From the NCBI RefSeq assembly GCF_008087625.1, contig NZ_CP042997.1, positions 5,084,001-5,148,000 on the forward strand: DNA of 64,000 nt, in the 5' to 3' direction. The translations under genes and the position numbers were made by a program. The notes beneath the pieces were generated by a model that saw only the letters and a list, made by a program, of their open reading frames with translations, was not told where the DNA came from and did no database searches. This document shows positions 10,615 to 58,530 of this stretch, one piece after another. The DNA comes from Aquisphaera giovannonii (lineage in GTDB: Bacteria > Planctomycetota > Planctomycetia > Isosphaerales > Isosphaeraceae). Position 1 is the stretch's first letter. Every line of letters starts with the position of its first letter.

Positions 10615-10704
10615 CCCCGTGGGAGCCGGCTCCGCCCGGCGACCGGGTGAGCCGCGTCGGTCGAAGTCCACCCCGGTCGCCGGGCGGAGCCGGCTCCCAC
10701 GGGG
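10615..10704. repeat. Inverted pair of REP palindromes
   Basis: A forward copy (10615-10646) and an inverted copy (10673-10704) of a 32-base REP unit face each other across 26 bases. Each unit holds the perfect palindrome GGAGCCGGCTCC and a second imperfect one CCGGCGACCGG. The units match those around the RAYT gene at 55-56 kb except for GCCCGG in place of GTCCGG. The pair lies between the 3' ends of the hydrolase and YhaN-like genes and could form a long hairpin. The rest of 10527-10813 holds nothing I recognise. Confidence 0.85.
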
Positions 10705-17999: not shown

Positions 18000-18150
18000 C
18001 CCCGTGGGAGCCGGCTCCGACCGGCGACCGCGCAGGCCTCGGCCTGGATGTCGGGCCGTGGCAGTTCGGCTAACCCCGTGGGAGCCGGCTCCGCCCGGCG
18101 ACCGGGTGAGCCGTGGCCTGCCCAGTCGCCGGGCGGAGCCGGCTCCCACA
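18000..18150. repeat. Three REP palindromes, two forward and one inverted
   Basis: Forward REP units at 18000-18031 (with GACCGG) and 18074-18105 (with GCCCGG) and an inverted unit at 18123-18150. Each contains GGAGCCGGCTCC. They lie upstream of the SbcD-like gene and downstream of an ankyrin remnant. A decayed unit is visible near 18350-18385 (GGTCGCCAGGCGGAAACGG). Confidence 0.85.
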
Positions 18151-54242: not shown

Positions 54243-55046
54243 ATGGGGACGAGCATACTCGACGAGATCGTCGCTTCCAAGCGCCGGGAGGTCGCCTCGG
54301 CGCGGCGGTGGATGCCGCTGGAGGAGCTGGAGGCCCAGGCGGCCGAGGCGCCGCCGCCGCGGGACTTCCGCGCGGCGCTCGCGGCCCCCGGCCCGATCCG
54401 GCTGATCGCCGAGGTCAAGAAGGCCAGCCCGTCGGCCAAGGTCATCCGCGAGGACTTCGACCCGATCGCCATCGCCCGGGCGTATCAGGAGCACGGCGCG
54501 GCCTGCATCAGCGTCCTCACCGACGCCCCCTACTTCCAGGGCCACCTCTCCTACCTGGCCCGGATCCGCGCCTCGGTGGCGATCCCGCTGCTTCGCAAGG
54601 ATTTTCTCATCGATGAATATCAGGTCGTCGAGGCGAGGCTCGCGGGGGCCGACGCCGTCCTGCTGATCGCGGAGATCCTCGACGACGCGACGATGGCCGC
54701 GCTGTTGCAGCGGGCGCGGGGCCTGGGGATGGCGGCGCTGGTGGAGCTGCACGACGCGGCGAACCTGCCGCGGGTGCTGGCCTGCGGGGCCGACCTCGTG
54801 GGCATCAACAACCGCGACCTCCACGCGTTCCGGACCGACCTGGAGCACACGCTGAGGCTCCGGGACGAGGTCCCGCCGGGCGTCCTGCTCGTCAGCGAGA
54901 GCGGCATCCGCACCCGCGAGGACGTCCTCCGCCTGGAACGCGCCGGCGTCTCCGCCATCCTCGTCGGCGAGTCCCTGATGCGCTCCCCGGACGTCGGCGC
55001 CGCCGTGGACGAGATCCTCGGCCTGGGCGCCGAAGCGACGGCCTGA
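54243..55046 (+). CDS. trpC: Indole-3-glycerol phosphate synthase
   Basis: The 267-residue TIM barrel has the family motifs in place: LIAEVKKASPS at about 54-64 (catalytic Lys and phosphate loop), LLRKDFLIDEYQ at 117-127 with the catalytic lysine K119, GINNRDL and VSESGIRT. The enzyme closes the indole ring in tryptophan biosynthesis. Length is normal for a single-domain TrpC. No other trp gene is in the window, so the pathway is scattered, as often in planctomycetes. The first REP unit of the RAYT region begins 20 bases after the stop codon. Confidence 0.97.
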   Translation: MGTSILDEIVASKRREVASARRWMPLEELEAQAAEAPPPRDFRAALAAPGPIRLIAEVKKASPSAKVIREDFDPIAIARAYQEHGAACISVLTDAPYFQGHLSYLARIRASVAIPLLRKDFLIDEYQVVEARLAGADAVLLIAEILDDATMAALLQRARGLGMAALVELHDAANLPRVLACGADLVGINNRDLHAFRTDLEHTLRLRDEVPPGVLLVSESGIRTREDVLRLERAGVSAILVGESLMRSPDVGAAVDEILGLGAEATA

Positions 55047-55065: not shown

Positions 55066-55407
55066 CCCCGTGGGAGCCGGCTCCGTCCGGCGACCGGGCG
55101 GGCCCGGGCCCGCGAAAGGTCCCCGTGGGAGCCGGCTCCGTCCGGCGACCGGGTGAGGCCCCGGCCGACGCGGAGGCCGAGCCACGACTCATCCGCCCGC
55201 CCCGTGGGAGCCGCCTCCGTCCGGCGACGGGAGCAGCCCCTGGTCACCGGGCATCTCCCCGTGGGAGCCGGCTCCGTCCGGCGACCGGGTGAGCCCCGGC
55301 CGACGCGGAGGCCGAGCCACGACTCATCCGCCCGCCCCGTGGGAGCCGGCTCCGTCCGGCGACCGGGTGAGCCCCGGCCGACGCGGAGGCCCCTTGGGAG
55401 CCGGCCC
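55066..55407 (+). repeat. Modular REP array, left of RAYT
   Basis: Five REP units in the forward direction at 55066, 55121, 55200 (variant GCCGCCTCCG), 55257 and 55335, and a partial one near 55390. The 32-base unit starts CCCCGTGGGAGCCGGCTCCG. Between units are three recurring linkers: A (about 48 bases, with GACGCGGAGGCCGAGCC), B (about 23, with CCCGGGCCCGCGAAAGG) and C (about 26, with CCCCTGGTCACCGGGC). The array ends at the RAYT 3' end. Confidence 0.9.
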
Positions 55408-55409
55408 AT

Positions 55410-55952
55410 TCAATCTCGAGTTCGCCAGCCCCACCACCAATCCCAGTCCAGCAGGTGCCTTCGGCTCGGGTGGGCGCTGGAGAAGGGCCAGTCCTCCGGC
55501 GCGGTGACGAGGCCTCGTCGAACGGGGTTGTACTCGAGATACTCCGCATAGGCCAGGGCCTCGTCGTCATCCCGGCAGCGATGGTCGTGGAATCCGTCGT
55601 CTTGCCAGACGGTGCCATCCAGGGCCAAGAGGTCCCGGATGCGATTCGCCGTGTAGGAGTTGGACCGCCTCAGGATCTCGGAGAGCGACGGGCCGGGCAG
55701 CAAGGTGAACAGCACGTGAAAATGCTCGGGCAGCACGACGAAGGCCAGAAGTTTGATGGACTCGCGCGTGCGGAAGTACGCCAACGAGTCGATCACGACC
55801 TCCGCCGCCACGGCTCGGGCGAGCAAGGGCCTTCGGTGTTCCGTGCACTTGCTGATGAAGTAGGTCTCCCACGGTGCGGAGACTCGTCCCTTGCGGAGAT
55901 CCCGGGAATGCGGCCGCCGGCGCATGTCAGGAGTCTCGAGATGAAGGTTCAC
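55410..55952 (-). CDS. REP-associated tyrosine transposase (RAYT)
   Basis: The 180-residue protein has the Y1/HUH hallmarks of IS200-like RAYT enzymes: the HUH pair H77-F-H79 in LPEHFHVLF, the likely nucleophile Y100 in RRSNSYTANRI, and the C-terminal NPVRRGLVTAPEDWPFSSA that marks the RAYT group. RAYTs nick and join single-stranded REP hairpins and are domesticated or slow-moving relatives of IS200/IS605 transposases. The start may be the GTG at 55952 or the ATG at 55925 (MRRRPHSRDLRKGRVS). A hairpin at 55944-55979 covers the GTG. It stands between two REP arrays pointing towards it from both sides and belongs to no operon. Confidence 0.93.
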   Translation of the reverse strand: MNLHLETPDMRRRPHSRDLRKGRVSAPWETYFISKCTEHRRPLLARAVAAEVVIDSLAYFRTRESIKLLAFVVLPEHFHVLFTLLPGPSLSEILRRSNSYTANRIRDLLALDGTVWQDDGFHDHRCRDDDEALAYAEYLEYNPVRRGLVTAPEDWPFSSAHPSRRHLLDWDWWWGWRTRD

Positions 55953-55979
55953 GGACCGACTTGGCCCCGGGTGAACCTT
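55944..55979. promoter_or_regulatory. Hairpin over the RAYT start region
   Basis: AAGGTTCAC (55944-55952) pairs with GTGAACCTT (55971-55979), 9 perfect bases and an 18-base loop. It overlaps the GTG start codon and the space before it, so it could limit translation or serve as a binding site for the transposase itself. This is inference from position only. Confidence 0.4.
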
Positions 55980-56015
55980 AGAACGAGATCACTCACCGGA
56001 TCGCCATAGGCTCAC

Positions 56016-56506
56016 CCGGTCGCCGGACGGAGCCGGCTCCCACGGGGCGGGCGGATGTGTCGTGGCTCGGCCTCCGCGTCGGCCGGGGCCTCACCCGGTC
56101 GCCGGACGGAGCCGGCTCCCACGGGGACCTTTCGCGGGCCCGGGCTCACCCGGTCGCCGGACGGAGCCGGCTCCCACGGGGAGATGCCCGGTGACCAGGG
56201 GCTGCTCCCGTCGCCGGACGGAGGCGGCTCCCACGGGGCGGGCGGATGAGTCGTGGCTCGGCCTCCGCGTCGGCCGGGGCTCACCCGGTCGCCGGACGGA
56301 GCCGGCTCCCACGGGGCGGGCGGATGAGTCGTGGCTCGGCCTCCGCGTCGGCCGGGGCCTCACCCGGTCGCCGGACGGAGCCGGCTCCCACGGGGACCTT
56401 TCGCGGGCCCGGGCTCACCCGGTCGCCGGACGGAGCCGGCTCCCACGGGGAGATGCCCGGTGACCAGGGGCTGCTCCCGTCGCCGGACGGAGCCGGCTCC
56501 CACGAG
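56016..56506 (-). repeat. Modular REP array, right of RAYT
   Basis: Eight REP units in the inverted direction, starting near 56016, 56096, 56151, 56208 (variant with GGAGGCGGCTCC), 56285, 56365, 56420 and 56478. Linkers follow the order A, B, C, A, A, B, C, with the same three linkers as on the left side. The last unit ends CCCACGAGAATT instead of CCCACGGGG. The rest of 55953-56553 holds nothing else. Confidence 0.9.
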
Positions 56507-56553: not shown

Positions 56554-58530
56554 TCATCGCGATGCGGACGCCTCCGCGGCCTTCTCCGGGTGGATGCGGA
56601 TGAAGTGGTCGGTGAAGGGGGTGTGGGGGACGGCGTCGCGGACGGTGGGCATGTGGCAGGCGATGCAGCCGGAGCGGGGGTTCACCGGGCAGCTCGGCGC
56701 TTGGGGCGCGGCCGCCAGGTCGAATCGCCTGGACCGCCGCCTGGGGGCGGCCTTCGCCGGGGGCGGCGGCCCGGAGTTGCCGGGGTGGCAGGTCAGGCAC
56801 CGGGCCTCGTAGTGGGCCGGCGAGGTCTCGGCGTTGCGGTGGGGGTCGTGGCAGGTCACGCAGTCGAGCCGGTCGCCGCTCTCGGTGTAGCAGCGGCTCC
56901 AGGTGAGCGTCGCGCCCTGGAAGCGGACCGAGGCCGGGTCGTTGCGGTCCACCGGCTTGTTGGAAGGGGCGTGGCACTGGGCGCAGATCTTCACGACGGG
57001 CGCGCCGGAGGCCAGGGCGGGGCGGGCGATCGCCGGGTCTCGGAATCCGGCGGCGACGGCGAGCACGTGGTTGCCCCCGGGGCCGTGGCACTTCTCGCAG
57101 CCGATCGCCGGGTCGGCGGCCTCCGGGCCCGCGGCCTCGATCACGGCGCGGGGGTTCGTGACATGGCAGTCGAAGCAGCGGCGGACCTGGTCCTCGGTCT
57201 CGGGCACGCCGAGGAAGCCGACCGGGACGGGGGGATGGGGCGGCTGCCCGGCGGTCACGGCCCAGAAGGGCTCGCGGCCTCGGCCCTCGTGATACTGGGA
57301 GAGCCGCAGCTCGAACGCGCCGCCCGACGCGTCGCGGCCGACGAACGTCCGGCCCCGGTCGCCCGAGCCGAACGCGTACTGGGCGACCGCCCTGTACACC
57401 TCGCCGGCGGTCCGCGTCTCCTGCTCCAGCCGGCCGCCCGCCACGCGGAGCGTGTGCCGGACCGAGGCGTCGACCGGGTCCGGGAAGCCGGGCGGGGGGA
57501 GGGCCTCCGCCGGGAGGGCCGCCGGCGGCGAGTACGTCCTCGCGTGCCGCGAGGCGCCCTGGGCGCGGGCGATCTCCGCGTGGCATCCGGCGCACTTCGC
57601 GGCGCCGACGAAGGGCGACGGGTCGATCCGCGTCGGGTCCTCCTCGGCGAAGGGCCCCGCGGCCTCCAGCGCGGCCTTCGCCGCGGGCAGGTCCCGGCCC
57701 TGCAGGTAGGCGCGGCTGAACAGCCAGGACAGCTCCGGGTCGGCCGTCATGCCGGCGCCGGGGTGGCCGGCGCCGGAGCCGGCGGCCGGCCCGCCCGCCA
57801 GCGACCGGAGCGACTCCAGGGCATCCGCGGGCCGGCCGGCGCGGAGCCAGGCGCGGGCGAGGTCCTTGCGGAGGGCCCGCATCGGCGCCGCGCCGGCGGC
57901 CTCGGCCGGCGCGCGGTCCACGGCGATCGCCCAGGCCTCGGCGGCCCCGAGGGCGTCGTTGCGGTCGGACCGAAGCTGGCCGAGGACGCGATGGGCCTCC
58001 GCCTCCCAGCCGGGCTGGTTGGCCAGGGCCTTCGCGGCCGCCTCCGCCTCCGCCTGCCGGTTGGCCGCGAGGTCGAGCCGCATCAGGGCGGCGAGCGCCT
58101 CGGGGTAGTCCGGTTCGACCCGCAGGGCGCGGCGCCAGGTCGCGACCGCCTCGGGCCTCCTGCCGGAGCGGAGAAGCGAGAGGCCCAGGAGGTAGAAGTC
58201 CTCGGCCGCCAGCGTCGCGGGGTCGAGCCGCGTGAACAGCGACACCGCCGGCTCGTCGCGGCCGAGCCGCGCGGAGGCCTTCGCCAGCAGCCGGACGGCG
58301 GCGGGATCCTCGCCGGCCCCCCCGGCCTTCCCGGCGAGCCGCTCGCGGGCCAGCCGCGCGGCGCCTTCCCAGTCCTTCGCCGCGTAGGCCCGCTCCGCCT
58401 CCGACGTGGCGGGGCCCCGGCCGGTGCCCCGCCACCGGCCCGCGGCCGCCAGGGCCAGCGCCAGGCCGGCGACCAGGAAGGCCGCCAGGGTGAGCACTCC
58501 GCGCCGTCGATGTCGTCCGGGTGATCCCAT
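56554..58530 (-). CDS. Membrane-anchored heptaheme c-type cytochrome with TPR region
   Basis: The 658-residue protein has one N-terminal helix (VLTLAAFLVAGLALALAAAG), then TPR-like repeats (about 40-290), then seven heme-binding CxxCH sites from about residue 305: CAGCH, CFDCH, CEKCH, CAQCH, CVTCH, CLTCH and CIACH. The spacing and the CxxCH-only pattern resemble the tetra/octaheme NrfA-like or DmsE-type periplasmic cytochromes, but I cannot match a named enzyme. The heme part is expected in the periplasm. It is the last gene of the minus-strand operon ending at 56554, 76 bases after the CRTAC1 gene. Confidence 0.88.
   Translation of the reverse strand: MGSPGRHRRRGVLTLAAFLVAGLALALAAAGRWRGTGRGPATSEAERAYAAKDWEGAARLARERLAGKAGGAGEDPAAVRLLAKASARLGRDEPAVSLFTRLDPATLAAEDFYLLGLSLLRSGRRPEAVATWRRALRVEPDYPEALAALMRLDLAANRQAEAEAAAKALANQPGWEAEAHRVLGQLRSDRNDALGAAEAWAIAVDRAPAEAAGAAPMRALRKDLARAWLRAGRPADALESLRSLAGGPAAGSGAGHPGAGMTADPELSWLFSRAYLQGRDLPAAKAALEAAGPFAEEDPTRIDPSPFVGAAKCAGCHAEIARAQGASRHARTYSPPAALPAEALPPPGFPDPVDASVRHTLRVAGGRLEQETRTAGEVYRAVAQYAFGSGDRGRTFVGRDASGGAFELRLSQYHEGRGREPFWAVTAGQPPHPPVPVGFLGVPETEDQVRRCFDCHVTNPRAVIEAAGPEAADPAIGCEKCHGPGGNHVLAVAAGFRDPAIARPALASGAPVVKICAQCHAPSNKPVDRNDPASVRFQGATLTWSRCYTESGDRLDCVTCHDPHRNAETSPAHYEARCLTCHPGNSGPPPPAKAAPRRRSRRFDLAAAPQAPSCPVNPRSGCIACHMPTVRDAVPHTPFTDHFIRIHPEKAAEASASR

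Follow-up and report, generated by a model that had tools for sequence, protein, structure and literature searches.

REP-associated tyrosine transposases (RAYTs, TnpAREP) are flanked by inverted REPs, and modular REP clusters lie beside one third of the RAYTs examined (Nunvar 2010, PMC2817692); co-evolution of RAYTs with REPs and a correlation between RAYT presence and REP number were reported in the same study. In Pseudomonas fluorescens SBW25, REPINs were described, with a REPIN cluster adjoining each of the three RAYTs (Bertels and Rainey 2011, PMC3116915), as were tandem arrays of 12 REPs in direct orientation, in which two spacings alternate. A TnpAREP together with its cognate REPs forms a REPtron (PMC8266576, PMC6006769), the biochemistry of which has been described (PMC8266576). 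From Planctomycetes, GTAG/CGTC REP families have been reported (PMC3733652).

The locus studied here lies in the window, i.e. the whole stretch of 64,000 nucleotides of the Aquisphaera giovannonii chromosome that was analyzed. Like a REPtron, it has a REP-associated RAYT and GTRG-headed hairpins that stand on both sides of the gene and are dispersed genome-wide, but the E. coli REPtron carries three inverted REP pairs, whereas 13 units run in one direction per side here. With BIMEs beside RAYTs (PMC2817692) it shares recurring inter-REP modules and an inversion of the REPs between the two sides. BIME modules, however, alternate REP and inverted REP head-to-tail, whereas each side here is a run of direct REPs in a single orientation with three linkers. 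The SBW25 arrays (PMC3116915) are likewise direct, with up to 12 REPs, alternating fixed linkers and near-identical arrays in opposite orientations, but they lie far apart (~2.5 and 4.1 Mb), whereas both arrays here flank one RAYT. Judged by REP shape against the published description, the units resemble those of TnpAREP subclass 2.5 / group 3 (Marinomonas Mb; PMC8266576, PMC6006769) in their two-base gap between foot and stem and their short 5-bp stem; foot, spacer, and stem add up to 11 nt (published range, 10-13), and the six-base loop CTCCGT is a difference from the short REPs of that group. The locus is very probably a REPtron, in which a single-copy, selected RAYT has cognate REPs on both sides, REPINs spread, and the arrays grew by block duplication.

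The RAYT gene and its two REP arrays

The protein was matched to NF047646 (NCBIfam REP-associated tyrosine transposase, REP_Tyr_transpos) with 112.6 bits (cutoff 80), to Pfam PF01797 (Y1_Tnp) with 29.7 (cutoff 23), and to the E. coli TnpAREP structure, PDB 4er8, with E=1.2e-9. An alternative ATG start lies nine codons inside the GTG start. The first-pass annotation had described an intact open reading frame with catalytic residues H77, H79, and Y100. The frame is intact and the two histidines of the HUH motif stand, but the tyrosine has to be replaced: in an alignment of eight RAYTs, residue 100 was variable, whereas H77, H79, and Y138 were invariant. By this alignment, Y138 is the catalytic tyrosine and pairs with Y115 of E. 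coli TnpAREP, the residue altered in the catalytic mutant (PMC8266576). The home genome (G000) holds one copy of the gene, and its seven further RAYT-like matches are just 27-45% identical; as in a REPtron, a single RAYT goes with this REP type. Alongside at least one of these seven genes (511 kb; e.g. L133:4045-4725), a different hairpin family, GTAGGGTGCGTCTCGACGCACC, was seen. In comparison with close RAYTs, differences at third codon positions are about double those at second positions, implying that the protein is under selection. The RAYT is a tame, transposase-like, single-copy gene.

As evident from Table 1, cores were located at five plus strand positions to the left of the RAYT and at eight minus strand positions to its right, in agreement with the earlier count of opposed full units, from which the truncated sixth unit beyond the five full ones on the left had been omitted. 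The GTGG heads face outward on both sides. GGAGCCGGCTCC, previously assigned to every unit, was found in 11 of the 13 full units, and GGAGCCGCCTCC is present in 2 of the 13. Each unit was named by the linker that follows the REP, read in REP orientation, and the letters may therefore differ from those used earlier. The order is A-C'-B*-C-C(truncated) on the left and B-A-C'-C-B*-A-C'-D on the right. In B*, the core GCCGGC has changed to GCCGCC, and linker B comes next on both sides; the sharing of linkers between the two sides, and of a variant unit beside the same linker, had thus been read correctly.

Table 1. Positions of genes and REP units in the window
Feature	Positions	Strand	Remarks
Dispersed REPIN	10619-10700		head-out REP pair, 58-bp offset
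Single REP, then REPIN	18004-18149		48-bp-offset REPIN
trpC	54243-55046	+	indole-3-glycerol phosphate synthase; array begins ~20 bp past stop
Left REP 1	55070-55093	+	then linker A variant
Left REP 2	55125-55148	+	then linker C' (1 base longer than C)
Left REP 3	55204-55227	+	variant core GCCGCC (B*), then linker B
Left REP 4	55261-55284	+	then linker C
Left REP 5	55339-55362	+	then truncated linker C
Truncated sixth left REP	55390-55405	+	CCCCTTGGGAGCCGGC; few bases off RAYT stop codon
RAYT / TnpAREP	55410-55952	-	180 aa, GTG start 55952; NF047646, PF01797, and 4er8 matches plus alignment
Right array	55996-56504		240-nt block twice, 97% identical, 269-bp offset
Right REP (unit D)	56020-56043	-	closest to RAYT 5' end
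Right REP	56099-56122	-	linker C', with ACACATCC variant
Right REP	56154-56177	-	linker A
Right REP	56211-56234	-	variant core GCCGCC (B*), linker B
Right REP	56289-56312	-	linker C
Right REP	56368-56391	-	linker C'
Right REP	56423-56446	-	linker A
Outermost right REP	56480-56503	-	normal core, linker B
TPR/multihaem cytochrome-like protein gene	56554-58530	-	end 50 bp from array

The REP hairpin and its copies in the genome

The REP hairpin is composed of foot, spacer, stem, loop, and stem (GTGG-GA-GCCGG-CTCCGT-CCGGC), and hairpins of this kind with a GT(A/G)G foot flank the gene, as they do in a REPtron. A pattern search for alternative stems of the home REP found none in the home genome, and evidence of covariation was therefore drawn from relatives. 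In the REPs beside the related RAYTs of two relatives, G018 and G045, GTRG and the GA spacer are unchanged, the loop is largely so, and the stems are altered compensatorily (GCCGG/CCGGC, GGGGG/CCCCC, GGGAG/CTCCC, GGAGG/CCTCC, and GGCGG/CCGCC among the home, G018, and G045 REPs). Across eight variants from the three genomes, the stem was 100% paired and three of the five pairs were changed on both sides, as against 77.6% paired in shuffles, control numbers that serve only as a guide with eight sequences that are few and related. The functional hairpin is most likely the GCCGG/CCGGC stem with the CTCCGT loop, as this pattern of substitutions suggests. The GGAGCCGGCTCC palindrome was also considered as the functional hairpin but was not retained, for want of support: all four of the pairs tested in it were invariant, whereas the GCCGG/CCGGC stem covaries. 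Invariance as such speaks neither for nor against the palindrome.

Mapping of REPs across the genome, as proposed in the first-pass annotation, was done by pattern search. It revealed 280 copies (≤3 mismatches) and 0 with the reversed-pattern control; the same REPs are dispersed genome-wide, again as in a REPtron. Individual positions were obtained for 153 of the 280. In clusters of these, 30 simple two-REP pairs were head-out and 0 were head-in. The offsets of the head-out pairs cluster at 48, 58, and ~112-122 bp, most being 48 or 58. The dispersed head-out pairs are REPINs: they are inverted, their heads point outward, and their spacer is fixed and partly conserved. The spacer is asymmetric, one arm continuing as CCGGGTGAGCC and the other roughly as CCGCGCCGGCC. 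Nine array units have tails of the CCGGGTGAGCC kind (≤1 mismatch) and three B-type units have another tail; the unit at 55070 is equally far from both kinds, and no array unit is clearly of the CCGCGCCGGCC kind.

Tandem REP arrays were also found at 8.363 Mb, where degenerate REPs separate six exact ones, and at 5.327 Mb (three REPs), with no RAYT known to adjoin them. In the former (L134:13380-13850), intact REPs alternate with degenerate ones (e.g. GCAGCARCCGCC) at a 93-bp period; two further RAYT-like genes are located 8-10 kb away. The distribution of the two commonest exact REP forms is uneven. Neither occurs in a 1.67-Mb arc (G000:C1:6355121-8028791), and both are nearly missing from ~1.5-3.9 Mb, with a gap at 2166500-3406853. 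When 94 clusters were placed uniformly 20,000 times, neither of these two largest gaps was matched. The REP-poor arcs are roughly symmetric in the chromosome, and GC sampled there seems slightly lower; no replication axis was obtained from GC skew samples.

Relatives and other RAYT loci

When 45 genomes of the family were searched for a close RAYT, only G018 (57%) and G045 (54%) were found to carry one beyond the home genome, and both genes are flanked by same-type REPs with altered stems or loop. The main-type REPs of G018 share one orientation before and after its RAYT, and the inverted partners carry other stems. A broadened REP pattern yielded 144 copies in G018, 97 in G043, 72 in G006, 25 in G044, 21 in G002, and 3 in G045. 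G002 belongs to the same genus. An unrelated gene follows its trpC, with no RAYT there, and its REPs are few and diverged (37 REPs); elsewhere, a 35-residue RAYT remnant that has lost the HUH motif adjoins a REP. Alignment of the G002 stretch after trpC with the 3' end of the cytochrome gene gave a score of 46 (maximum of 36 in 200 shuffles), which is suggestive of an unoccupied site. In the draft assembly of G006, 111 REPs (≤3 mismatches) were counted and a close RAYT was not found, pointing to either an assembly gap or REPs that persist without a RAYT. Because G006 keeps these REPs without a close RAYT and G045 has its RAYT with just three REPs of exactly this form, the numbers of RAYTs and REPs track each other imperfectly. 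A search among GTDB contigs found no related loci.

About 48 RAYT-like loci, some of them duplicates, were surveyed in a crude scan that sought recurring GTRG hairpins up to 1 kb away, and the home locus had the most units. At L054:1238-2260 (G027, another family), a RAYT is accompanied by ~10 GTGGCCCAGATTGCTTGCCAATCTGGG repeats, four before and six after, ~62 bp apart and nearly all in one direction across both sides. In L151 (G002), the units stand ~86 bp apart as ++ and ---, opposed just as at the home locus, and L143 has five flanking units. The large ordered cluster at the gene had been regarded as unusual. This did not hold for its kind, given the published modular clusters and 12-REP arrays and the 10- and 5-unit examples in the survey. 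No other array in the survey is as large as the opposed one of 13 units, which stands at the high end in number; its layout recurs and is not a new kind.

Growth of the arrays

The three linkers were joined with N spacers and used as a query against the genome, a search that the first-pass annotation had called for. No other good match to A, B, or C was obtained in 10.5 Mb, the next best being E=0.003 over 23 bases. As the linkers are unique to the locus, we deduced that the array grew by local duplication and not by repeated insertion of dispersed REPs. The duplicated block of the right array comprises C'-A-B and part of the first unit. Together with the unique linkers and the derived core mutation on both sides, this duplication bears out the local amplification suggested earlier. 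Two inverted arms link the sides, one 186 nt long with 94% complementarity and one of 144 nt with 99%; in view of these arms and of the REP copy number against the control, the arrangement is not due to chance. Inverted blocks common to the sides and the mutation carried by both uphold the earlier view that the sides go back, as rearranged copies, to a single ancestral array.

By analogy with the enzymes of E. coli, Stenotrophomonas, and Marinomonas, the RAYT, a HUH/Y1 single-strand endonuclease, would bind the REP hairpin as single-stranded DNA with the GTGG foot as a guide. It would then cleave and rejoin beside the REP, and head-out REP pairs would spread through the genome; the RAYT most likely spreads hairpin repeats of the flanking type in this way. 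The two arrays would be its local cognate REP set, enlarged as complete REP+linker blocks were duplicated in tandem, whether through slippage, through unequal exchange involving near-identical REPs, or through cleavage and rejoining between REPs by the RAYT. Blocks common to both sides may have arisen by inverted exchange or conversion.

Enlargement by the RAYT and enlargement by ordinary recombination are both likely. The latter stays in play because tandem arrays exist away from any RAYT; since no RAYT is known beside the 8.363- and 5.327-Mb arrays, arrays do not necessarily depend on one for their growth. It is quite possible, if somewhat short of an even chance, that the arrays are passive parts of the REPtron, formed by replication slippage, unequal recombination, and gene conversion of near-identical GC-rich repeats with the RAYT uninvolved. 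The doubling of whole REP+linker blocks would fit such an origin, as would the two distant arrays, but no array found elsewhere in the genome is as large as the one at the RAYT, and L054, L151, and L143 are RAYT loci with arrays too. In a more active version, which we consider improbable, the RAYT builds its own opposed uniform arrays by cutting and rejoining between direct REPs and by copying blocks across the sides, and the array would be the source of half-REPINs (a REP with the GGGTGAGCC-side spacer) that give rise to the dispersed head-out pairs.

In enterobacteria, REPs are known to serve as terminators and gyrase sites. Arrays occupying both intergenic gaps between the convergent trpC and cytochrome-like genes might likewise be mainly structural, as cruciforms or as supercoil or termination elements independent of the RAYT. 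This is very unlikely: the analysis turned up no sign of the structural role suggested earlier, the folding energy of a single unit did not set it apart from shuffles (z -0.18), and variant units persist although their stem is broken. Least probable of all is an IS200/IS605-like element that has REPs as its boundaries and still moves autonomously as a unit. REPs do bound the gene in inverted orientation, the element is missing after trpC in G002, where a trace of the end of the cytochrome gene may persist, and the G018 and G045 RAYTs lie in other contexts. A difference in location across genera can, however, reflect horizontal transfer, and the protein fits the REP-associated family, scoring 23.3 as an IS200/IS605 transposase against a 55-bit cutoff. 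An IS200/IS605 transposon pairs its transposase with a multicopy mobile unit, whereas a single copy was found in this genome.

As a REPtron, the locus provides a clear RAYT-REPIN system in a deep-branching planctomycete with a 10.5-Mb genome. Its array is tagged: linkers and a core mutation present on both sides document how a REP array grew at a RAYT. G018, G045, G002, and G006, in which the RAYT is kept, kept, broken, and not found, respectively, form a natural series for the question of whether REP populations need their RAYT.
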